DNA from: Candidatus Magasanikiibacteriota bacterium
GTDB lineage: Bacteria > Patescibacteriota > Patescibacteriia > Magasanikbacterales > UBA922
Assembly (NCBI GenBank): GCA_018650645.1
Contig: JABIFP010000024.1
Coordinates: 1 to 44,631, forward strand
Direction of reading: 5' to 3'
DNA: 44,631 nucleotides
In this document: positions 6,117-33,610 of the stretch, one piece after another
How positions within the stretch are numbered: position 1 is the first letter of the stretch
Layout of the letters: each line of letters begins with the position of its first letter
The notes under the pieces: model-generated
Databases searched by the model: none
The model's input: the letters and a program-made list of their open reading frames with translations, nothing else
Told to the model about the DNA's origin: nothing
Translations under genes and position numbers: made by a program

Positions 6117-7313
6117 ATGACATTATCCTTCGGAAAAATTCTAAAATCGCTATGTAACTGGGTGAGCTTCTATCTCAGCCATTGTATGCCAAGAAATAAA
6201 AATATTTGGATACATACCGGCTGGAGAAGGACTCCAGAACGCGAAACTTTTGGTGATAATGCCAAATACTTTTTTTTATATATTCAACAACATAAACCAA
6301 ATATTCGATCCATCTGGATTGCTCAAGACAAAAAGATGAGAGATCTTCTTAGGACGCATGGATATTCTTCATATACCCTTGATTCTTTTATGGGAATATA
6401 TCTTTCACTCAGAGCCGGAGTCACAATTGTGGATTCGAATCTACGAATTGCAAACTGGCGGCTATCTGGAAGAAGTCGATATATTCAACTCTGGCATGGT
6501 AAATCATTTAAAAAAATGGGAAAAATCAGTCCATATGGATCAACGTATAATAAATTTGTATCGCCGAATTTATTTGTTACATATGCATACATCGTTGCAG
6601 CGTCTCATCTACTTGGTAAATATCTTCTTCAAGGATTTGAACACAAAAAAAAGCACTTACTTATCTCAAGTTTACCTCGGTATGATGTATTCTTTAGCGA
6701 TATTCCCGGCTCAGATATTGATGAAGATACACAACTATCACAAAAAATCGATCAAGATAAGAAGGCTGGCTATGAATCCGTAGCGTTTTATGCCCCAACA
6801 TATCGTCCTGATGGAAGCAACCCACTAGAACATTTAGATCTTACCATGCTCAGCGATGCGCTATCGGTGTCGAATACAAAATGTTATATATCACTCCATC
6901 CAAAATGCTATAACAAAGATTGGAAAAAACCTGACGGATATCAGCATATTGAATTTATCCAAACCGTATTAGATATTTATCCTATATTCAAGAAATTTTC
7001 TGTTATTATTACAGATTATTCCTCTATGGCAATCGATGCTCTTCTTTGCAATGTTCCATCCGTTATATATGCATACGATGAAAGTACCTATCGTGTCAGT
7101 ATGGGAATTCATGACGAGCTTTGGGATGCCTTTCCAGCGCACAAAACGCATACGATGCCTAAACTCTGTAAGATTTTGAAAGAAAAAGACTATGCTTGGA
7201 ATGCCTCTTTTCAGCAAACAAAAGAGAAATTCTTTACTTTTTCTTCGCTTCATGGTTATAATGAGCAGGCCTCATCAAGGCGAATATACGAAGCTATTGA
7301 AAAAATACTCTGA
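6117..7313 (+). CDS. CDP-glycerol glycerophosphotransferase family protein (TagB/TagF-like)
   Basis: This 398-residue protein matches the Glyphos_transf family (PF04464). IQLWHGKSFKKMG is at about 123-135, YAPTYR at 225-230, a His-Pro pair at 261-262, and ITDYSSMAIDALL at 298-310. These contain the conserved His, Arg and Asp-Tyr-Ser-Ser positions of TagB/TagF enzymes, which transfer alcohol phosphates from CDP-glycerol or CDP-ribitol to glycan or wall teichoic acid acceptors. It begins 33 nt after gtrA and ends 4 nt before a hydroxyacid dehydrogenase. A cytidylyltransferase-like gene follows two genes later, so a CDP-linked donor may be made locally. The donor need not be CDP-glycerol. Confidence 0.85.
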   Translation: MTLSFGKILKSLCNWVSFYLSHCMPRNKNIWIHTGWRRTPERETFGDNAKYFFLYIQQHKPNIRSIWIAQDKKMRDLLRTHGYSSYTLDSFMGIYLSLRAGVTIVDSNLRIANWRLSGRSRYIQLWHGKSFKKMGKISPYGSTYNKFVSPNLFVTYAYIVAASHLLGKYLLQGFEHKKKHLLISSLPRYDVFFSDIPGSDIDEDTQLSQKIDQDKKAGYESVAFYAPTYRPDGSNPLEHLDLTMLSDALSVSNTKCYISLHPKCYNKDWKKPDGYQHIEFIQTVLDIYPIFKKFSVIITDYSSMAIDALLCNVPSVIYAYDESTYRVSMGIHDELWDAFPAHKTHTMPKLCKILKEKDYAWNASFQQTKEKFFTFSSLHGYNEQASSRRIYEAIEKIL

Positions 7314-7317
7314 TTTT

Positions 7318-8298
7318 ATGATCATGAAAGCGTTAATTACGGATCCAATTGATAGTTCTGGCCCAGAGCTTCTTGCGAGTAAGGGGATTGAAATCACTAC
7401 AAAAATTGGCCTATCTGCTGCAGAAATTGAAAAAATAGTTTCTGATTTTGATATTCTTATTTGCCGAACAAGCACAAAAGTAACCAAGCCTATTATCGCA
7501 GCAGCAAAAAAACTGCAGTGTATTGGTCTTGTATCAACAGGATGGGATCACATAGATATTCCAGAAGCAAATGTACATGGTATTGCTGTGCTTGGACTAC
7601 CGCCAAACAAAGACATAGATGTGACAAAAAAAGGAAGCTTTGTCCCCACATCAGAGCACGTGATTCTCTCTATGCTTGCAGCAGCTGGAAATTATTGCCA
7701 GGTGGTTGATGAGTTAAAACAAGGGAACTGGAATAAATTTGCCTTCCAAGGTACTGAACTCTTTCAAAAAACACTTGGGATCATTGGCTTTGGTCGCATT
7801 GGCCAGCTTGTATATGAACGAGCTACCGCCTTTGGTATGCGCATCCTAGTAAGTGATACAAGTAAACAAAAAAGTAATCAATTTCCTAATATTGAATTTG
7901 TCTCACAAGAAAATCTTGTTCAGGAAAGCGATTTCATCTCAATCCATGTTCATAAGAATGCTTCAACCATTGACCTTATCAATAAAGAAACATTTGCCAC
8001 AATGAAAAAAGGTGTTATTCTCATTAACACCTCAAGAGGAGGGATCATCAATGAATCAGATCTTTTAGAGGCATTAAACCTCGGTCTTGTCAGAGCTGCA
8101 GCAATTGATGTATACGACAATAGTAAGGGCAAATTACCAATGGACCTTATCACTCATCCACGTGTACTTGCCACCCCACATATTGCAGGCGTAAGTCTTG
8201 AAGGACAAAAACGCCAATCAATCGATACGGCCCAAAATATTCTTCAATATCTGTTTGATGGGGATACATCAAATATAATAAATTCTCCAAATACCTAA
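7318..8298 (+). CDS. D-isomer-specific 2-hydroxyacid dehydrogenase (phosphoglycerate dehydrogenase-like)
   Basis: This 326-residue protein has the usual two-domain layout. The N-terminal substrate half includes TGWDHIDIPEA at about 74-84. The Rossmann motif GFGRIG is at 157-162, with Asp180 ending strand 2 and thus NAD preference. The catalytic Arg240 lies in INTSRGG and His288 in TPHIAG. The third catalytic position, Glu in the DVFxxEP motif of SerA, aligns with Ser269 (DVYDNSK), so activity may be altered or an acid nearby may substitute. A charged insertion (NKDIDVTKKGSF, about 97-108) precedes the domain hinge. The start at 7318 is chosen, with 7324 as an alternative; the frame opens earlier at 7192 inside the TagF-like gene. 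A second, rearranged copy of this fold sits in the protein at 10219. Confidence 0.85.
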   Translation: MIMKALITDPIDSSGPELLASKGIEITTKIGLSAAEIEKIVSDFDILICRTSTKVTKPIIAAAKKLQCIGLVSTGWDHIDIPEANVHGIAVLGLPPNKDIDVTKKGSFVPTSEHVILSMLAAAGNYCQVVDELKQGNWNKFAFQGTELFQKTLGIIGFGRIGQLVYERATAFGMRILVSDTSKQKSNQFPNIEFVSQENLVQESDFISIHVHKNASTIDLINKETFATMKKGVILINTSRGGIINESDLLEALNLGLVRAAAIDVYDNSKGKLPMDLITHPRVLATPHIAGVSLEGQKRQSIDTAQNILQYLFDGDTSNIINSPNT

Positions 8299-8308
8299 AA
8301 CAACCACT

Positions 8309-9025
8309 ATGAAAGCTGTTATTATTGCCGGAGGACAAGGAAGACGACTTCTTCCTCACACAAAGGACAAGCCAAAGTGCCTTATGACGGTTCATGAGAA
8401 ACCCATTCTTGAATACCAGTTCGAGGCGCTTCGTCATGTTGGTATTACTGATATAGCTATTGTTAGTGGACACTGCCACGATCTTCTTAAAACATACACC
8501 GCTCAATATAACCATCCCGTTACCTTTATTGAGAATACAGATTTTGCTGACACAAATAATGCATACGGAATTTGGCTAGCCAAAGAATTTGTAGCAGATG
8601 ATCCAGAAGGGTTTCTCCTTATTAATTCTGACCTTGTGTTTCCTCCAGAGATGCTTGCCTTTCTTATTGATTCAAAAGAAAAGGATTGTATTATTATTGA
8701 AAAAAACACCGACCCAGAAAGTGACATGGTGAAGATAGAAATGAAGGGTAACGATATCATTGCAATGAGTAAAGATATTCCACCACAAAAAACAAGCGCT
8801 GAAGCCGTAGGGCCAGTGAAATTCTCTCAAGAAGGAGGAGCCTTGTTTATGGAATACCTTGAATCATTTGTAAAAAAGAATGAGCGTAATCACTGGTTCT
8901 TCTACAAACTTGGAGACTTTGCTAGAGATCATTTCTTTGCAGGTATCTACAACCCTGGTTTCGTTTGGGCAGAAATTGACACGTATGAAGACCTGCAACT
9001 GGCTCACGAACTGATTAACGTGTAA
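8309..9025 (+). CDS. Nucleotidyltransferase, LicC/PntC-like (CTP:phosphocholine or aminoalkylphosphonate cytidylyltransferase type)
   Basis: This 238-residue protein starts with the NTP_transferase signature AGGQGRRL (7-14) and KPKCLM (21-26). DTNNAYGIWLA (81-91) and NSDLV (106-110) follow, and the C-terminal WAEIDTYEDLQLA is near 220. The TNN-Y-WLA motif and the short length fit the LicC/PntC branch, which makes CDP-choline or CDP-2-aminoethylphosphonate, better than glucose-1-phosphate thymidylyltransferases, which are longer. Its placement after a TagF-like enzyme and before a class V aminotransferase supports activation of an amino-alcohol phosphate or phosphonate. That substrate is inference; a sugar-1-phosphate cannot be excluded. 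Confidence 0.75.
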   Translation: MKAVIIAGGQGRRLLPHTKDKPKCLMTVHEKPILEYQFEALRHVGITDIAIVSGHCHDLLKTYTAQYNHPVTFIENTDFADTNNAYGIWLAKEFVADDPEGFLLINSDLVFPPEMLAFLIDSKEKDCIIIEKNTDPESDMVKIEMKGNDIIAMSKDIPPQKTSAEAVGPVKFSQEGGALFMEYLESFVKKNERNHWFFYKLGDFARDHFFAGIYNPGFVWAEIDTYEDLQLAHELINV

Positions 9026-9030
9026 ATACT

Positions 9031-10203
9031 ATGATGAAACCGCTCGAATCTCCTCCTCTTGATAGGATTCTTGATGCACCTGTATCACAGTTATTTGAGC
9101 AGCATAAAGATATAGCAAGTCCTCTTGTTAATAGGCACATTCAAGAGGTGAAAAAAAAACGTGTTTCTCCAGAAGCTGTGAAGCTGCTCGGTGACGCAAA
9201 TCATGCCTACCTACAAGAAATAGAACAGGATCTTCATCTTCGCTATCATCATATTGATTTAACAACGCTATCAGATCTCGAAGCATACATTAATACCATC
9301 TTTTCAGAGGTTACTAAACATACTTCTTTTTTTGGAACATATCTTAAAGAAGAAGCTGCAATAAAGATACTTCAAACATGCCCACCACAAGATATCATGA
9401 ATTTTTTTCAAGTAAAGTGTGTCGATGATATTTTTCACCGTCTCAGTCCACTGAAAATAATTTCTCTATCCAGATATACGGAGCGACAATCATGGCAAAA
9501 AACATATATTTCCCTGCTTGAATCTTTACCAAAAGATGCATTTGAACAGAGGCAGATAACCCACTTTTGTTTTACGCATGACACATATAAAGAGCTTCTA
9601 CGTAATTCAAATCAGCCACAAAAATTATGGAACATGTCACATAATAAAGTAACCGGACAAATTTTGATCTATCACCAGACAGACCTTTCACATTTACGTA
9701 CACCGTACCTTCTCTATGCTCTGGTATTCATGCATTATATATATGAAACAAGTTGCGCCGGGGCATTTTATACGTATATGCAGGACAAAACCAACTATCT
9801 TGGTCAAGTTATGGTACAATCATTTACCAACTCAAAGGGACGTATTGAAGGGTTAGGCGCGAATGTGTATTCCGAAACAATCTTTTGGGCAAAAGGTGTC
9901 AATCTCTTTTTTTTATTAAACCCATCCAAGCATAGTGAAATGATTATATCGCACGCAGCATGTGGATATGCAAAAAAAGAATCTTCAAAACACATATCAA
10001 TGAATATAATCGATCATCTCTGGAATTTGAATGGAGTACCTGGGGCTCCACACCGGTATCATTTTCAAGAACAATTATGGACTACCATCTCTAAACAACT
10101 TTGCGAATCCTTGCAACACACATCCACGTTTGAAGAGCGTATACTCAAAAATCTTCATATGACAGATATGCAAATAGTTCCAATTATTTTTCCTCACCAA
10201 TAG
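9031..10203 (+). CDS. Protein of unknown function in the head-group cassette
   Basis: I do not recognise this 390-residue protein. It appears soluble: no signal peptide and no clear membrane segment. The N-terminal 120 residues are charged and helical. A better-ordered C-terminal half contains WNMSHNKVTGQILIYHQ (about 206-222), a Tyr/His-rich stretch (LLYALVFMHYIYETSCAGAFYTY), then IEGLGANVYSETIFWAKG and PGAPHRYHF near 340-347. The many conserved-looking His, Tyr and Trp residues hint at an enzyme. It starts 5 nt after the cytidylyltransferase stop, with tandem ATGs at 9031 and 9034, and ends 15 nt before the giant fusion enzyme, so it is expected to work in the same pathway. No family is proposed. 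Confidence 0.7.
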   Translation: MMKPLESPPLDRILDAPVSQLFEQHKDIASPLVNRHIQEVKKKRVSPEAVKLLGDANHAYLQEIEQDLHLRYHHIDLTTLSDLEAYINTIFSEVTKHTSFFGTYLKEEAAIKILQTCPPQDIMNFFQVKCVDDIFHRLSPLKIISLSRYTERQSWQKTYISLLESLPKDAFEQRQITHFCFTHDTYKELLRNSNQPQKLWNMSHNKVTGQILIYHQTDLSHLRTPYLLYALVFMHYIYETSCAGAFYTYMQDKTNYLGQVMVQSFTNSKGRIEGLGANVYSETIFWAKGVNLFFLLNPSKHSEMIISHAACGYAKKESSKHISMNIIDHLWNLNGVPGAPHRYHFQEQLWTTISKQLCESLQHTSTFEERILKNLHMTDMQIVPIIFPHQ

Positions 10204-10218
10204 ACTCATTGTACCAAT

Positions 10219-13200
10219 ATGTTTTTGTTAAGCGATCTCATTTCTCCACTCTCTGCTCATGTAATTCAGGGAATCAAGCAGGAATACGGACATCACCGTA
10301 CAGAGTGGTTTACAAAATTTCTTCAAAATATCAACCATTTTTTTACCGTTCACTGCCAGTCAGTTGTTGACCCAATTTTTCTTACTTCGAATAAAAATGG
10401 TGCATTTGAAGGACTTATTAGTGCGGCCGTTGGTCATAATGATCAAGTATTATCGGCACAAGAAGATGATTTTTCTAGATTTCTTTCAAATACATCTTGC
10501 CACATTGATAGATACACAGACCTAGAATCAATGAATAAACTTCTTCTTCATAAGAAATATACCATTGTTTTTTTATCAAAAGATATCTGTAATCAAGCAG
10601 TAGAAGACATTGCAGAAATTATTGACCAGATTAAACAAAGCTCTCCATCAACAATTGTGTTATGTGACTTGAGCTATGGATTTGCAAGTTCCTATTATGA
10701 TTTGTCTTTATTGAGTAAAGCGGATGCCTATATTATTTCACCAGAATATGCACTAGGATCAATTTCCGGGACTGTTCTATTGTTTATCAATAATCCCGAA
10801 AACTTTCCATGCACAGAAAATTATCCATCATTTACCTATGACATAGCCTTAGCTCTTAAAGCGTGGACCAATAAAAAAACAACCCCCTATTCACCAAATA
10901 TTTTTTCCGTAATTTCCCTGTCTTACGCAATTGATGTATTAAAAAATCTTCCTGGCGGAATTACGTCGCATGTGCAGCACCAACAAGCAACTGCAACGTT
11001 CGTCAGAAACTGCTTATATCATATATTTCCAGACAAATACATCTTTGAACACGGAAATTCACACTCTTTTGTAACTTGTGACACCGAGGAAGATGCTATT
11101 GCTATACAAGCATATCTTCGCGAACATGCAATGTATGCAAGTATCATTCATAGTGCATCTGATTGGAAAATTCGTATTGGTCATTTTGGATATGTTCCAA
11201 AAGAACATCTTAAGATTGTACAAAATGTGCTTCTTGCATATGCAAACACCGATCTAAAGCAACTTCATCAACGTACTGATAGTATTTTTTCAGCCGATGA
11301 TTATGTTGTGACGAAAGATGAAAGTTTGTTTTCTTCGCTGTTTACTATCGATGTGGAAGAATTTCATACAGCCTCAGTGTCAAAATTTGCCAAAATTTCG
11401 GATAAACAATTAAAAAACAAACTTACGAGCGGTGTACAACGTATATTCAAGTTTGATCAAACACAAATTTCACAATATTTACATAAACGGCATATTGGAT
11501 TTATTGGTGCTGGAAATACTGTTCGCGAAACAATTTCTATTTTACAAAAAATGGGTATCCACGATATTACCATATATTCACCAACATTACTCAATACAAA
11601 AGAGACAGCTAAACCCAATCAAAAACCACATAAGTATCCAGATTTTTGGACAGAAAAAAATATAAAAATTGCATCATCCGCAGAAGAAGTCTTTATGAAC
11701 TGCGAAACCGTTGTTCTACTACCTACATATTATACAAAACCGTCATCAGAGATAATGAAAAAAGATCCTGAATATATCAATGATCATCTAGTCAATAAAC
11801 AATTACTTGCCAACGTGCGTCACCATGGAAAAATGGATACACTTATTAATGCTTCAGCAAGATATAATTTAATTGATAGACAGGCACTTAAAGAAGCAGT
11901 TGATGATGGATGGCTACGTTTTTTTTCAGACGAATTACCGAGCGAAATACAAGAATATACGGATCCACTACAGTATCATGAGAACGTTACTTTTACAGGC
12001 CATATTGGTGGATCATGTAGGAGTACCAAAAAGAAAATTGCTCATAACACAAACAAAATTATTAAACACGTCTTATCAAAAGTATACAGCAATGTAGAAT
12101 TGCAAAATGATCTTCATTACGTACCAAATTGTGTCAATAAGCATGTCGCACCAGATGTGTGGAAATACGAAAAAACTTTTCATTCACCGCCACAGACACT
12201 TCGTGTACTACTTACTGATAAATTTGAAATAAATATATTAGATATTGAAGGACTGGCACAGGATTTTGATATTAAAATTGAGGTCAAAGATATCAGTCTG
12301 GATTCAATGTCAGAAAAACATCTCATCGACACATGTACAAATTTTGACCCCCACATCATACTTTTTCGTACCAGAACAGTTATTTCAGATACTGTTGCAA
12401 ATGCATTTCAATCCCTATCTCTCTTATTCTTAATTCGTCCAGGGGTTGGTATAGATAATATTTATCCTGGAATGGCCGAAATTTCACGCCAAGGAATTCA
12501 AATATACAATGAACCAACCGGTAATTCTCTTGCAGTCGGAGAAATGACGACATATTTTATCGTGAACTCTGAACCATCCCTCCTACTCGCACCAGGCCCA
12601 ACGAACTATTGCCCCGAAATTTTTTCATCTATTGATCAATATACTGATCCTAGAGATCCATCATATGTTGACACATATGCAAGTGTCAAAGCGCAACTAT
12701 CCTCATGGACGTCGCAAGACCTTCCAGCAATTATTAAATCCGCACCGAGTACAGCTTTTTTGGAATCTACCGTAACAAATGCTGTGTCGAATGAAGAAAT
12801 CGGACTTGTCATTTCGAATGGAAAATTTGGCAATAGATTTCATGAAATTTGCACACTTCACAAGAAACAACACTATTTTATTGATATTGATAATGAAGAT
12901 TGGGGTCAGCCGCACACTGTTGAAAAAATCTGCAAATATATTCATGAAAAGAATGCAATATCAAAGCAACCAATCTCATTTATGTGTTTACAGCAAAATG
13001 AGACCAGTACTGCCATTTCATATAAACCATATCATCTTAAACAAATTATTGAAGCATTGCGATCGTATGAACCACATTGTATTGTCATTATTGATGCAGT
13101 GAGTGGCTTTTTTGCCCATGATGTTCCGCAAAAAGAGCTTGATATCGATGCACTCATTATAGGATCCCAAAAAGCATTGGGGCTCTCTTCTGGCATTTCC

Positions 13201-13794
13201 TTTTTATCTCTTAGTGAACGATACGTGGAGAAATTACTCAGCCTCACGAAAAGTAATATATCTCTACAAGATTTTCTTAGATTAGAACCGCAAAAGGTCA
13301 AGGAAATTTATCATATTCTGGGGAAGCGACAAAAAGTTTTTTACACGAACATCTTAAAAGACTTTTACGAATCGTATCACAACCTACAACCAGATAGCGG
13401 AGGAGTATTTCATACCTTGTCTGCAAAAAAGTCATTAAATATTCTTGCAAAGAAAAATAAGACCGAACACCACGAATCTCGAAAGCAATACGCAAGCGCT
13501 GTCCGAAAAAAGTTACAAGAATTAGGATTCACAAAGATAGTTCCAGAAGCATATGCATCATATTCAGTTACTGCGGCTCATGTTCCTCCTGGTTTATCAG
13601 CGCCGAAACTTATTTCAACACTACGAAACAGATTTGGCATTAGTATTGCAGGCTCACAAATTCCATTATTTAGAGAAACAATGATTCGTATTGGACATTT
13701 TGGACATATTTCTCAATATGACATCGGCTACTTACTCCGATCACTAGATCGAGCAGTAGCCATTGAAAAGCGCACAAGATCACCTGAAAGTTAA
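10219..13794 (+). CDS. Giant fusion enzyme: degenerate class V aminotransferase, rearranged D-2-hydroxyacid dehydrogenase, intact class V aminotransferase
   Basis: This 1191-residue soluble protein has four recognisable parts. Residues 1-355 are a class V aminotransferase fold (HHRTEWF near 26; IRIGHFGYV near 325), but the PLP-lysine position reads Tyr177 (SPEYALG) and PGPT is lost, so it should be inactive. Residues 421-630 are the NAD-binding and catalytic half of a D-2-hydroxyacid dehydrogenase (GFIGAGNTVRE at 427-437, INASARYNLID, GHIGGS with His595). Residues 661-785 resemble that enzyme's N-terminal substrate half (LRVLLTD, RPGVGIDNI), placed after instead of before the Rossmann half. 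Residues 788-1185 are an intact aminotransferase of the serine-glyoxylate/AEP-transaminase group (APGPTNYC, QNETSTA, DAVSGFF, SQKALG with Lys985, IRIGHFGHI). It lies at the end of the cassette that starts at 6117. Substrates are unknown. Confidence 0.8.
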   Translation: MFLLSDLISPLSAHVIQGIKQEYGHHRTEWFTKFLQNINHFFTVHCQSVVDPIFLTSNKNGAFEGLISAAVGHNDQVLSAQEDDFSRFLSNTSCHIDRYTDLESMNKLLLHKKYTIVFLSKDICNQAVEDIAEIIDQIKQSSPSTIVLCDLSYGFASSYYDLSLLSKADAYIISPEYALGSISGTVLLFINNPENFPCTENYPSFTYDIALALKAWTNKKTTPYSPNIFSVISLSYAIDVLKNLPGGITSHVQHQQATATFVRNCLYHIFPDKYIFEHGNSHSFVTCDTEEDAIAIQAYLREHAMYASIIHSASDWKIRIGHFGYVPKEHLKIVQNVLLAYANTDLKQLHQRTDSIFSADDYVVTKDESLFSSLFTIDVEEFHTASVSKFAKISDKQLKNKLTSGVQRIFKFDQTQISQYLHKRHIGFIGAGNTVRETISILQKMGIHDITIYSPTLLNTKETAKPNQKPHKYPDFWTEKNIKIASSAEEVFMNCETVVLLPTYYTKPSSEIMKKDPEYINDHLVNKQLLANVRHHGKMDTLINASARYNLIDRQALKEAVDDGWLRFFSDELPSEIQEYTDPLQYHENVTFTGHIGGSCRSTKKKIAHNTNKIIKHVLSKVYSNVELQNDLHYVPNCVNKHVAPDVWKYEKTFHSPPQTLRVLLTDKFEINILDIEGLAQDFDIKIEVKDISLDSMSEKHLIDTCTNFDPHIILFRTRTVISDTVANAFQSLSLLFLIRPGVGIDNIYPGMAEISRQGIQIYNEPTGNSLAVGEMTTYFIVNSEPSLLLAPGPTNYCPEIFSSIDQYTDPRDPSYVDTYASVKAQLSSWTSQDLPAIIKSAPSTAFLESTVTNAVSNEEIGLVISNGKFGNRFHEICTLHKKQHYFIDIDNEDWGQPHTVEKICKYIHEKNAISKQPISFMCLQQNETSTAISYKPYHLKQIIEALRSYEPHCIVIIDAVSGFFAHDVPQKELDIDALIIGSQKALGLSSGISFLSLSERYVEKLLSLTKSNISLQDFLRLEPQKVKEIYHILGKRQKVFYTNILKDFYESYHNLQPDSGGVFHTLSAKKSLNILAKKNKTEHHESRKQYASAVRKKLQELGFTKIVPEAYASYSVTAAHVPPGLSAPKLISTLRNRFGISIAGSQIPLFRETMIRIGHFGHISQYDIGYLLRSLDRAVAIEKRTRSPES

Positions 13795-29731: not shown

Positions 29732-32700
29732 TTATGATGATGGTGGAACGTGAGTTTGAGTGTAGTCATCCAATCCAGGAACTAAACGACCTACGAACCA
29801 ATGTGCATCAGTTGTAGAATCTACAGTTCCAGAGTTATCAGTCCACACGAATGAACCAAGATCTGAAGAATCAGATGCATCAGCATCGTCTTCTGCATTT
29901 GTGTTTGTTTGAGCACTTACAGTTGTAGTTGTTTCATCATCGATAGTTACCTTCAATGAATCACCAGCTGCAAAGCTTGCGAGTGTCGCACGTACACGAT
30001 ATGACTTCGAAGCACCCTCAGAAATATTTTCTACACTTGAAAGAGCAATCACAAGTCTATTTTGAGTTGTGTTACTTGTAAATGTAGCAGTAATTTCTGT
30101 GTTACTTGAGTCGTAGAGCTTTAGGTTTGGTGTTTGACCTACACATTCAAAGATAGTTGCTCCAGCTGCACAGCTTCCGCTGATATCAAGAGCAATTTGA
30201 CTCCATGCAAGGTCCCCAGCAGCATTAGCTGCAACGCTAAACTCAAAGATGTTTGATGCACCATTGATCAATGTCGCAGACGCATCTTTTCCATTATTAG
30301 TAACAGTTCCGATTCCTGCCATAGAAAGGGTAGGAATAGTTCTGTATGCAGAGAGAGTGTTCGCTTCAAGAGCAGAAGCTGGGTCAGTGTAAGTTCCACT
30401 CACAGTAATTGTCTGTGAGTTTGGAAGTGTTGATGTAACACCATCTGAATCACCAGCATTCATGATTGACATTGTATTTCCATTTCCAGCTGAAAGCGCT
30501 GTCAATGAGTACAATGATGGTCGTGAAATAACCTGTGTTTCAGCTACTTGACTGATACTGTTGTATCGAGCGTATAGGCTTGCTTTCACAGTACCATCTT
30601 CAGGAACCTCGATTGGAGTTCCTTCGATGTCGAAGTGAAGTTCACCATCAGACATTACTCGGCCCATTACCTTTGATCCTCCAACGTAGAGGTCCCAACC
30701 AGCTACACGTGCATCTGATGCAGATGAGCTAGCAGTTCCTGCTGCGTTTAAGTTTGCAAAGTATAGGTCAGTAACTTGGATGTCATCGTCTTCTGCGATG
30801 AATCTCCATCGTCCAACCTCTACGCCAGTGTCATCACTTGCGTCAGCAACAACGAGTGCAGTGTTTGGAGTATCTCCATCAACACCAACACGCAAGATTC
30901 CTCCAGTTACAAAGTCAATTGATTGACCTGTCACATCGTAAGTAGTTCCTGAAGTAAATCCAGAAACATCTTCACCTTCAGCATCATCGATGTCTGAATC
31001 TGAGGCATCCATTGTTACTACTACAGAAGTAGTTGCTCCTAGTGATGACTGCAAGTCACAGTACAACCCAAGTTCAGCTTGCGCTGAAGAAGCAATGTCA
31101 AGACGCATGTTGTTGAATGTAAGAGCACCAGAATTGTTTAGGTCATCTGTGTCTCCGATACCTGTAGCACCGTCATCATCAGATACGAAACAGTTAGTGA
31201 TCTTTGTGTAGTTTGAAGAGAGATATGATGAAGAACCTCCATCAGTCAACATGTCGAAATTCAATGTGTTCACACGAATATCTGATGCTGATCCTGCTTC
31301 TACTACGAATTGCAAGAGCAATTGATCTGAAGCACCAGCTACGAAGTTCTCACCTGATGAGTATCCATCATTTCTAGTAAGAGCTACTGATGCAGCGTTG
31401 ATTTCGATCAATCGTGATGTAGCTGTACCTGTTCGGTTAGCAGCTGCAACGTTGTCTCCACTTGAAACGTATTCTGGGTCTTGGAAATGATTTGAGTCAG
31501 ATCCACTAATCCAGAATTTGTATTGACTTGTAGCATCAGCTGCTTCTTCAAGATCAATAACAAGTGTTAATAGGTCATCGTCAACAAGTTCGAATGAACT
31601 GTTGAAGTTGTAGTACCATTCGTAGTCTCCAATGTCTCCAGCTGGAGCTGTTGAAGAAGCAGTAACAGTAGTAAGTGATGAACCAATACGATCATCATTG
31701 ATGTACAATTCAGCACGTTCAATGTCACCATTGATTTCCGCAAGAGAATTCACAGTACTTGTTGAGTCTCCGTGAAGCCATAATTGCAATCCATCAACTT
31801 GGATCTTTTGTCCAACGTCCACTCGCGCTACCATAGCAACGATATCATGTGTTGCAGGTGCGTAAGTTTCATTTGACGGTGAACTTACGTCAAGAGAAAC
31901 AGTAAACTGCCCAGCATCCAAAGTATACGTTTGGAGTTGGTTAGTAGCAGTACCGTTCAAGCTGTTTGTAACAGAAGCTCCAAATCCGCTCAATTCACGT
32001 ACGTGAAGGTCACGGTTGTTTTCAAGCTCCCAAATTACAGTTTCAGCGTCGTCTCCATCAGAGATGTCAGCTCGAATTTCGTATGTTCGGTCTTTTCCGT
32101 CTTCAATAAGACGAGCATCTTCCATGAACATGAAAGTTACGTAGTCTCCCCACATAGAAATACCACTGGTAACTTCTTCACCATCGTAGTAAAGACCAAG
32201 GTTTTCCATGTTAGCAGTGTTCAATGTACCTTCATTCTTCAATCGAACGTAAACAATTTCACCGTCTTTTTCGTTTGATGAACTGAAGTCCAAGTTGAAC
32301 TCACCAGTAACGATTCCTTCGTCACCAACTTCAATGTCAGATGATGCACCTTTTTCGTCAATAGTGATTGCTGCTGGAGTATAGTTTGAGTAACTCATCA
32401 AGTTACCACGCACTGGGAAAGATCCCATTACGTTAGCTCCGTTTGCGTCAACAAGGTCAGCTCTAGCAATTTGGAAACCATCTTGCATTGAGTTGTCTGC
32501 ACCAGTTGAAACAAGGTTTGCTACCAAGTCAAATTCAACAGTATTATTCGCACCAACAGTGTATTGTGGGCGAAGTGTTACTGAATCGTCACTACTTACA
32601 CTTTGTTCGTTTGATACTGGGAATCCATCAACTTCTAACCAAACTTTATCAAAGTTTGAGTCATCACCTTGACCAATTCTTTCGAATTGAATTTCGTCAA

Positions 32701-33610
32701 GAGTAGCTGATTCAGATCCAGCGCGAACGCGGAATGAAAGGTAGTTAACGTGTGTTGCTTTGTCAGGAGTAAGAGCAGATGCTGGAGTTCCAGCGCTAAG
32801 GCTCAAAGTAAGGTCACCTGCTGGAGTTTCCTCAGCTGGTTCTTCACCTTCTTCTACTTCCTCTTCTACTTCTTCTTCTGATCCTTGTGCAGGATCAGCA
32901 ACTACAGTAGCTGCAGTTACAGAATCACCTGAGTCTGCAACAGTTTCGAGTACTTCAGCTGAAACAACGCGAACGTCGCCAGCAGCTGGAGCTGGAAGGT
33001 CACCTGAAATTTCGTGACGCATTCCGTCCCAAACGTACCATAGAGTATCGTCACCTTCTACACGAACGATTTGACCGTTGTGTGGAGTTGCTTCAGTGAT
33101 GTCAGAACCTTCACCATAGTTAGCCCAGTGGAATGGAGAAACGTCTCTTACGAGAGTAGCCCATGCTGGTCCGTATAGTGCGATTGCGATAGCTTCTGAA
33201 GCGATCCAGTGACGCATGTTATCTGGTCCTACTGCGTATACTTTTGAATCAGTTGTGATCTTCACAAGGCGTGATCCATGTCGGAAAGTAACACCTGGTT
33301 GATCAAGATCAAGTGGGAAAGCCCCAGCTTGAGACAGTGACAAGTGGTTTAAACCAGCAAAGTCAGCCTGCCATGATCGATGAGTTTCCCCATTTGGGAA
33401 GTATCGTGATTTCATTCCTTCTGTTACCAAGAAAACAGCTTTGTCTCCTGATTCAGGAACGTCAAAGATGTCACCTGGCTCTAGTTCAACAGTTCCTTCA
33501 GCTTGAGCGATAGCAGGCAAGAAAGCCGCTACACCCATGCTCCAAGCAATTGTCATGAGAACTACAGACCATGTGAATCCTTTTTTTGTAAGAGTCATTA
33601 CATTAGTCAT
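29732..33610 (-). CDS. Large secreted S-layer-like surface protein
   Basis: This 1292-residue protein has a signal peptide (basic MTNVMTLTKKGF, hydrophobic core, AIAQAEG cleavage near residue 37). Residues 40-230 hold short motifs around FPNGETHRSW, VYAVGPDNMRHWIASEA and LWYVWDGMRHEI, similar to N-terminal domains of large surface proteins of Patescibacteria. An acidic linker of Glu/Pro follows at about 243-262. The remaining ~1000 residues are Asp/Ser/Thr-rich beta-type repeats with very few Cys and no catalytic motif. Codon use is uniform, with favoured codons repeated, as in highly expressed genes. A hairpin-rich leader precedes it and a strong terminator follows. It is probably the main S-layer-like coat protein and may be the glycan acceptor. 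Function is inferred from composition and context. Confidence 0.8.
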   Translation of the reverse strand: MTNVMTLTKKGFTWSVVLMTIAWSMGVAAFLPAIAQAEGTVELEPGDIFDVPESGDKAVFLVTEGMKSRYFPNGETHRSWQADFAGLNHLSLSQAGAFPLDLDQPGVTFRHGSRLVKITTDSKVYAVGPDNMRHWIASEAIAIALYGPAWATLVRDVSPFHWANYGEGSDITEATPHNGQIVRVEGDDTLWYVWDGMRHEISGDLPAPAAGDVRVVSAEVLETVADSGDSVTAATVVADPAQGSEEEVEEEVEEGEEPAEETPAGDLTLSLSAGTPASALTPDKATHVNYLSFRVRAGSESATLDEIQFERIGQGDDSNFDKVWLEVDGFPVSNEQSVSSDDSVTLRPQYTVGANNTVEFDLVANLVSTGADNSMQDGFQIARADLVDANGANVMGSFPVRGNLMSYSNYTPAAITIDEKGASSDIEVGDEGIVTGEFNLDFSSSNEKDGEIVYVRLKNEGTLNTANMENLGLYYDGEEVTSGISMWGDYVTFMFMEDARLIEDGKDRTYEIRADISDGDDAETVIWELENNRDLHVRELSGFGASVTNSLNGTATNQLQTYTLDAGQFTVSLDVSSPSNETYAPATHDIVAMVARVDVGQKIQVDGLQLWLHGDSTSTVNSLAEINGDIERAELYINDDRIGSSLTTVTASSTAPAGDIGDYEWYYNFNSSFELVDDDLLTLVIDLEEAADATSQYKFWISGSDSNHFQDPEYVSSGDNVAAANRTGTATSRLIEINAASVALTRNDGYSSGENFVAGASDQLLLQFVVEAGSASDIRVNTLNFDMLTDGGSSSYLSSNYTKITNCFVSDDDGATGIGDTDDLNNSGALTFNNMRLDIASSAQAELGLYCDLQSSLGATTSVVVTMDASDSDIDDAEGEDVSGFTSGTTYDVTGQSIDFVTGGILRVGVDGDTPNTALVVADASDDTGVEVGRWRFIAEDDDIQVTDLYFANLNAAGTASSSASDARVAGWDLYVGGSKVMGRVMSDGELHFDIEGTPIEVPEDGTVKASLYARYNSISQVAETQVISRPSLYSLTALSAGNGNTMSIMNAGDSDGVTSTLPNSQTITVSGTYTDPASALEANTLSAYRTIPTLSMAGIGTVTNNGKDASATLINGASNIFEFSVAANAAGDLAWSQIALDISGSCAAGATIFECVGQTPNLKLYDSSNTEITATFTSNTTQNRLVIALSSVENISEGASKSYRVRATLASFAAGDSLKVTIDDETTTTVSAQTNTNAEDDADASDSSDLGSFVWTDNSGTVDSTTDAHWFVGRLVPGLDDYTQTHVPPSS

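Follow-up and report, generated by a model that had tools for sequence, protein, structure and literature searches.

The 44,631-nucleotide stretch analysed here (the window; contig JABIFP010000024.1 of Candidatus Magasanikiibacteriota bacterium), whose positions serve for all coordinates below, encodes at 10219-13794 (+) a protein, P0001, in which two class V aminotransferase (AT) domains enclose a permuted 2-hydroxyacid dehydrogenase. Its open reading frame (ORF) starts with ATG, runs without internal stop for 1191 amino acids (aa) and specifies, in this order, a degenerate AT (AT1), the nicotinamide adenine dinucleotide (NAD)/catalytic half of the dehydrogenase, the substrate half of the dehydrogenase and an intact AT (AT2). 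Four features are established from the sequence: this architecture, the permutation, a complementary degeneration of the two ATs, and a gene cassette shared with a homologue. From these we infer the packing of the ATs as a dimer, a joint fold of the dehydrogenase halves, and an activity, substrate and pathway. Judging from its aligned residues, P0001 is probably a covalent pseudo-heterodimer with one composite active site per chain. The full explanation, in which an asymmetric linked class V AT carries a permuted SerA-like dehydrogenase insert and performs the chemistry and pathway proposed below, is the one we favour, with less assurance.

A degenerate and an intact aminotransferase in one chain

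We searched P0001 with a profile hidden Markov model (HMM) built from 81 class V ATs, mainly serA-linked or serine-operon members. AT1 aligned over residues 10-334 (model positions 15-352, independent E-value 1.1e-8), and an AlphaFold2 (AF2) model of residues 1-352 adopts a complete class V fold (predicted local distance difference test (pLDDT) 77, predicted template modelling score (pTM) 0.77). Among the 50 Protein Data Bank (PDB) matches that Foldseek listed for this model, all were class V ATs, matched over their full length with TM scores of 0.72-0.80. These results refine the boundary of the dead AT, which starts at residue 1 and ends near residue 345, leaving residues 346-394 as a linker. 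AT1 has no catalytic lysine: the position of the pyridoxal phosphate (PLP) lysine is held by Tyr177 in P0001 and by Arg in the homologue described below. MAFFT aligns the family lysine opposite Tyr177 in some subsets of rows only, and no alternative alignment places a lysine there; on the full chain, the AT rows and both dehydrogenase halves could not be placed together.

AT2 matched the class V HMM in two segments (residues 786-1010, 9.6e-38; residues 1036-1179, 2.9e-17), NCBIfam and PDB class V matches span residues 784-1181, and PF00266 was matched above its cut-off. The residues that define the class are present, namely Lys985 (SxK lysine), Asp959 (Asp at N1) and Arg1157 (RIGH arginine). 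A sequence-only reading of this DNA had described one dead and one live class V AT in the chain, with the lysine replaced by Tyr177 in the first and kept as Lys985 in the second, and the HMM alignment and AT1 fold model bear out this description.

A homologue lacking the dehydrogenase

Profile matching of both AT domains across 381 genomes sampled from the taxonomic class of the source genome (class in this sense hereafter) recovered one further protein, G581:C5:338926-341019, of 698 aa, from a genome (G581) of another order of that class. In this protein AT1 is fused directly to AT2 with no dehydrogenase between them, and its identity to P0001 is 35%. Single-protein scans of genome contigs and viral contigs found no relatives of P0001, nor did alignment-based scans of viral sequences; the plasmid and phage collections yielded ordinary ATs and dehydrogenases only.

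In a phylogenetic tree the AT1s of both proteins cluster apart from the AT2s, each group being well supported, and P0001 AT1 is on a long branch. Therefore, the tandem had split into AT1 and AT2 before the two proteins diverged and, as the G581 protein contains no dehydrogenase, the AT pair is independent of the dehydrogenase insertion. What the two proteins conserve as their core is the AT1-AT2 tandem, and P0001 has the dehydrogenase in the linker of this tandem. The AT pair is probably older than the insertion, and the dehydrogenase has either entered the linker in one lineage or disappeared from the other. The former suggestion that P0001 arose by partially duplicating an AT-dehydrogenase unit is rejected on the evidence of the dehydrogenase-free homologue and of the AT1 and AT2 clades.

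The two fusions also share a cassette of five genes, encoding a TagF-like transferase, a hydroxyacid dehydrogenase, a LicC-like nucleotidyltransferase, a protein of unassigned family and the AT fusion itself. The cassette is missing from nearly all sampled relatives of the source genome and of G581, which suggests transfer between lineages.

A circularly permuted SerA-like dehydrogenase

Both parts of a 2-hydroxyacid dehydrogenase (PF00389 and PF02826) are present in the insert, in an order other than the canonical substrate-NAD-substrate arrangement: the NAD/C-terminal half precedes the N-terminal half. PF02826 matched residues 521-597 (profile positions 105-178), whereas the phosphoglycerate dehydrogenase (PGDH) model TIGR01327 matched residues 662-782 at its own beginning (positions 1-108). 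A SerA HMM gave the same result in a single scan, with residues 523-621 on positions 212-306 followed by residues 661-781 on positions 3-111 (3.8e-11 for the latter), and the upstream NAD part (residues 395-520) can be aligned end to end. The proposed reversal of the halves is thus upheld, including the dehydrogenase signal expected within residues 661-785.

Both halves are, by sequence comparison, SerA-like in origin. Against the SerA of serine operons the best E-values were 1e-10 (N-terminal half) and 3e-7 (C-terminal half), compared with 0.17 and 0.019 against the hydroxyacid dehydrogenase of the same operon, and derivation of the insert from this neighbouring gene is rejected on those values. 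The order observed is that of a circular permutation, as read from the alignments, in which the natural termini are joined and the chain is opened at the interdomain hinge. We propose that a SerA-like dehydrogenase was inserted in permuted form into the AT1-AT2 linker, with its new ends where the NAD domain hinges on the substrate domain. Both junctions would then lie near one point, and the AT pair could therefore carry the dehydrogenase as a module. The open-access literature searched contained no report of such an AT tandem or of a 2-hydroxyacid dehydrogenase permuted in nature.

Arg, Glu and His form the catalytic triad of the 2-hydroxyacid dehydrogenase family. All three align in the insert (Arg548, Glu576 and His595), and the substrate-side motifs RTR, RPGVGIDN and NEPTGNS are also kept. 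The permuted dehydrogenase likely folds as one unit and, judging from these residues, we lean slightly towards its being catalytically active. Several observations weigh against this reading. The NAD motif is altered, with GAGNTV (residues 430-435) instead of GxGxxG and Ser454 instead of the NAD-selecting acidic residue after beta-2; therefore, cofactor use is uncertain, and the site could be either modified or non-functional. There is a one-residue insertion ahead of Arg548. The AF2 model of residues 395-786 is weak overall (pLDDT 65, pTM 0.52), being confident in the NAD half and moderate in the N-terminal half, and its structural matches fall mainly on the NAD half. In VIA it matched the NAD domains of 2-hydroxyacid dehydrogenases with Z about 15, a comparison that lists mainly sequential matches to the NAD half and so gives no evidence either way on the other half. 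In addition, the dehydrogenase-containing form is known from one genome only.

These departures from the family (GAGNTV, Ser454, the insertion and the weak model) would also fit a permuted, degenerate SerA domain acting as a sensor or spacer, for example by binding NAD or a 2-hydroxyacid to regulate the AT pair. The G581 cassette, moreover, lacks the insert and has an intact hydroxyacid dehydrogenase. Such a role is conceivable, but we consider it the less probable one given that the triad and the three substrate-side motifs are kept.

Complementary degeneration of the two aminotransferases

Class V ATs are normally symmetric homodimers in which both sites are built from both chains. Fold type I ATs require dimers, the active site being at the interface (PMC9309667). 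In AtAGT1 the partner subunit lends Tyr35', Arg36' and Thr250', and replacement of Pro251 inactivates the enzyme; E. coli phosphoserine aminotransferase (PSAT) has His41' and Arg42' at the places of Tyr35' and Arg36' (PMC6797613). In AeHKT the PLP phosphate is contacted by the partner's Tyr256' and Thr259' (PMC10125267).

We mapped these partner-lent positions by alignment to His31, Arg32, Thr240, Thr243 and Pro244 of the serine-operon AT family, where they are nearly invariant. At the five places AT1 has His26, Arg27, Thr222, Ser225 and Pro226, and AT2 has Pro811, Arg812, Gln1057, Ser1060 and Gly1061; the His-Arg pair of the PSAT/SerC type is therefore present in AT1 and absent from AT2. The two domains of P0001 have decayed in opposite ways: AT1 keeps 2 of 12 own-pocket residues and 4 of 5 partner-lent residues, compared with 10 of 12 and 1 of 5 for AT2 (Fisher p 0.028 for each domain, 12 own-site versus 5 partner-lent positions). 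The pattern is sharper in the G581 protein, whose AT1 is missing some 80 PLP-domain residues as well as the lysine (APER) and reads KIGH for RIGH, with GHHR and STPFSP kept. Its AT2 keeps the pocket but reads YYN for GHR and MIDMP for TPFTP. Pooling of both proteins gives Fisher p 3e-4 and 9e-4, values that are not independent because the proteins share ancestry.

We propose that AT1 and AT2 pack against each other as protomers do in an ordinary class V AT dimer. The working site would be the AT2 pocket (Lys985, Asp959, Gln984, Thr929 and Arg1157) completed by residues lent from AT1, with His26-Arg27 over the substrate side chain and the Thr222-Pro226 loop at the PLP phosphate. Each chain would have a single active site, because the opposite one lacks the lysine (in AT1) and has damaged lent residues (in AT2).

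Besides the shared ancestry behind the pooled statistics, two points count against the composite site. The loss in AT2 is incomplete: in P0001 AT2, Arg812 remains and Ser stands at the Thr position, and G581 AT2 retains the Pro. The packing of AT1 on AT2 rests on sequence, the models covering residues 1-352 and 395-786; the support for a dimer of the dead and live domains, an idea raised earlier, is thus specific and at the level of lent and own residues.

AT1 might instead be no more than a remnant with a structural or regulatory role, a duplicate in decay that keeps the chain stable, with AT2 homodimerising between chains. It retains only 20 of 77 family-conserved positions, the G581 AT1 is without its roughly 80 PLP-domain residues, and homodimers are frequent among tandem-domain enzymes. 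We nevertheless regard a remnant as unlikely: AT2 is without most of the residues it would have to lend (Pro811, Gln1057 and Gly1061 in P0001; YYN and MIDMP in G581), AT1 has exactly those, and AT1 persists in two proteins of only 35% identity.

Possible chemistry and pathway

Class V AT genes lie directly upstream of serA in 67 of 80 fetched loci, in support of the serine-pathway type of chemistry formerly suggested for P0001. The pairing of AT and SerA in operons, together with the serine/phosphoserine-type His-Arg pair, leads us to infer an oxidation step on a phosphorylated 2-hydroxyacid, followed by an amination. The probable substrate of the dehydrogenase would be 3-phosphoglycerate or a similar phosphorylated D-2-hydroxyacid, and the composite AT site would aminate the 2-oxo-acid so formed. 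That the two activities act in sequence is possible, if somewhat short of probable, and a phosphoserine-like product is a more tentative assignment still. The LicC-like and TagF-like genes suggest that a phospho-amino compound, the product of this branch, is activated by the nucleotidyltransferase and transferred to a surface glycan by the TagF-like enzyme, and the window is rich in glycosyltransferases and also encodes a flippase and an O-antigen-ligase-like protein. The most elaborate version, in which the hinge junctions seat the dehydrogenase on a one-site AT dimer and channel the phosphorylated 2-oxo-acid while the cassette adds a nucleotide-activated phospho-amino compound to surface glycans, is speculative and, taken as a whole, rather doubtful.

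The cassette might alternatively make an aminoalkylphosphonate by tailoring of the PntC/2-aminoethylphosphonate (AEP) type, since AT2 matches the AEP transaminase model TIGR03301 (6.8e-27) and the nucleotidyltransferase belongs to the LicC/PntC type. This is improbable: phosphoenolpyruvate (PEP) mutase (PF13714) was not found in the source genome, whose completeness is rated at 100%, but was detected in 11 of 14 control genomes, and AT1 keeps the serine-type His-Arg pair. Of the sequence-only reading as a whole, the architecture, the reversed halves and the serine-type chemistry stand; the partial duplication falls, and the phosphonate substrates it listed for assays are unlikely.

No 2-hydroxyacid dehydrogenase scored above cut-off in the source genome outside the cassette; three other class V matches there are possibly cysteine desulfurases. 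That assembly joined an AT-AT gene and a SerA gene into a chimaera is very improbable, for although the dehydrogenase-containing form occurs in a single assembly, its 1191 codons are free of stops, the junctions fall in linkers, G+C is even along the gene (0.32-0.41), no other dehydrogenase of this type was found in the genome as a donor, and the halves are far from every SerA compared (about 12-37% identity).

Features and further observations

Coordinates of P0001 and of the cassette genes are given in Table 1.

Table 1. Coordinates of the cassette genes and of domains and residues of P0001
Feature	Position	Strand	Evidence
TagF-like CDP-polyol phosphotransferase, cassette gene 1	6117..7313	+	PF04464 1.2e-39; 45% to G581 gene
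Separate intact D-2-hydroxyacid dehydrogenase, cassette gene 2, probable start 7324	7192..8298	+	PF02826 7.5e-53; 50% to G581
LicC-like nucleotidyltransferase, cassette gene 3	8309..9025	+	PF12804/PF00483; 61% to G581 gene
390-aa protein without Pfam match, cassette gene 4	9031..10203	+	34% to G581 gene; dehydrogenase-gene partner elsewhere
AT1, degenerate class V aminotransferase, residues 1-345	10219..11253	+	Class V HMM, AF2, Foldseek
AT1 His26-Arg27, predicted partner-contributed residues	10294..10299	+	Match AtAGT1 Tyr35'/Arg36' and E. coli PSAT His41'/Arg42' (alignment; PMC6797613)
Tyr177 replacing PLP lysine (SPEY177ALG vs GSQK985ALG)	10747..10749	+	HMM alignment, multiple alignment
AT1 Thr222-Pro-Tyr-Ser225-Pro226 loop	10882..10896	+	Counterpart of AtAGT1 Thr250'/Pro251; in class V ATs this loop extends to the PLP phosphate of the partner (PMC6797613, PMC10125267)
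Linker from AT1 to dehydrogenase insert, residues 346-394	11254..11400	+	No family match (Pfam/NCBIfam, HMMs)
Dehydrogenase NAD/catalytic half, SerA-like, residues 395-621	11401..12081	+	PF02826, SerA HMM, AF2, VIA
Dehydrogenase N-terminal substrate-binding half, residues 661-782, downstream of NAD half	12199..12564	+	TIGR01327, SerA HMM
AT2, intact class V aminotransferase, residues 786-1191	12574..13791	+	HMM; PDB matches 3f0h, 6pk1, 2dr1
AT2 Pro811-Arg812, partner-donating His lost (G581: Tyr-Asn for His-Arg)	12649..12654	+	Alignment
Lys985, PLP lysine of AT2	13171..13173	+	HMM and alignment
AT2-specific insertion, about residues 1010-1035	13246..13323	+	Common to G581 AT2, absent from family
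AT2 Gln1057-Pro-Asp-Ser-Gly1061, altered partner-donating TPFTP loop	13387..13401	+	HMM, alignment

Sequence and family searches with the 390-aa cassette protein assigned no function to it. In 7 of 7 further genomes of the class (L132-L138), the gene for a member of its family (about 400-450 aa) is the immediate neighbour of a hydroxyacid dehydrogenase gene. In one of them, L135, the gene occurs with a ribulose-phosphate epimerase, a split transketolase, an inositol-monophosphatase-like gene and a glycerate 2-kinase, a context that suggests a role of the family in hydroxypyruvate/glycerate metabolism. Elsewhere in the window, a 1292-aa ORF without Pfam match (29732-33610) lies in the middle of the glycosyltransferase cluster.

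Three other records were noted in passing. NZ_CP084075.1 (L012), a 2.1-Mb Fusobacterium vincentii "plasmid", has the size and housekeeping genes of a chromosome and encodes a LicD-like protein, a class V AT and a LicC-like nucleotidyltransferase in a row, a logic similar to that of the P0001 cassette. OR844993.1 (L013; "Staphylococcus phage SA 1306 Kay", 163 kb) contains a ribosomal protein gene and, ordered as in serine operons, serA and a class V AT gene; although deposited as a phage, it resembles a contig of a bacterial chromosome. The third record (L006, 7-2958), from a small genome within the same phylum, encodes a protein of 983 aa or more (open frame 1584 aa) whose middle part is a class V AT-like domain amid otherwise unassigned sequence.

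Significance and comparison with known systems

If the composite-site reading is true, the covalent pair is a natural separation of the pocket and lent-residue roles, and the contribution of each protomer becomes directly testable by mutation within one chain. The linker insert, as a 2-hydroxyacid dehydrogenase permuted in nature, would exemplify circular permutation enabling domain insertion, and the cassette, being conserved, suggests that small-genome bacteria have a surface-modification pathway not yet described.

Dead partner protomers are already known among fold type I enzymes, as are fusions of class V ATs. In the glycine decarboxylase P-protein and in serine palmitoyltransferase LCB1/LCB2, the only site is that of the live protomer, completed by a dead one that may be fused or separate; unlike P0001, these enzymes belong to PLP subfamilies other than class V ATs and have no dehydrogenase insert. 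The serA-linked class V (group IV) serine-type ATs (Staphylococcus, Bacillus and Brevibacillus operons; AtAGT1, PSAT) share with P0001 the fold and the PLP and partner-contributed motifs. They are symmetric two-site homodimers encoded by separate genes, with the SerA gene adjoining the AT gene, whereas P0001 has two diverged protomers, one presumed site and a SerA-like part within one chain. SerA itself (TIGR01327; PF00389 and PF02826) resembles the two halves of the insert, Arg/Glu/His triad included, but in P0001 the halves are reversed, GxGxxG is altered and there is no sign of the ASB/ACT regulatory domains. Like P0001, PntC-AEPT of Treponema denticola (6PD1) and the MpMetRS fusion of Mycoplasma penetrans (9OS7) join a class V AT to another enzyme, and PntC-AEPT combines an AT with a nucleotidyltransferase for surface tailoring, as the P0001 cassette may do (PMC6697681, PMC13215547). 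Unlike P0001, both have a single AT domain that dimerises between chains, with no dead partner and no dehydrogenase.

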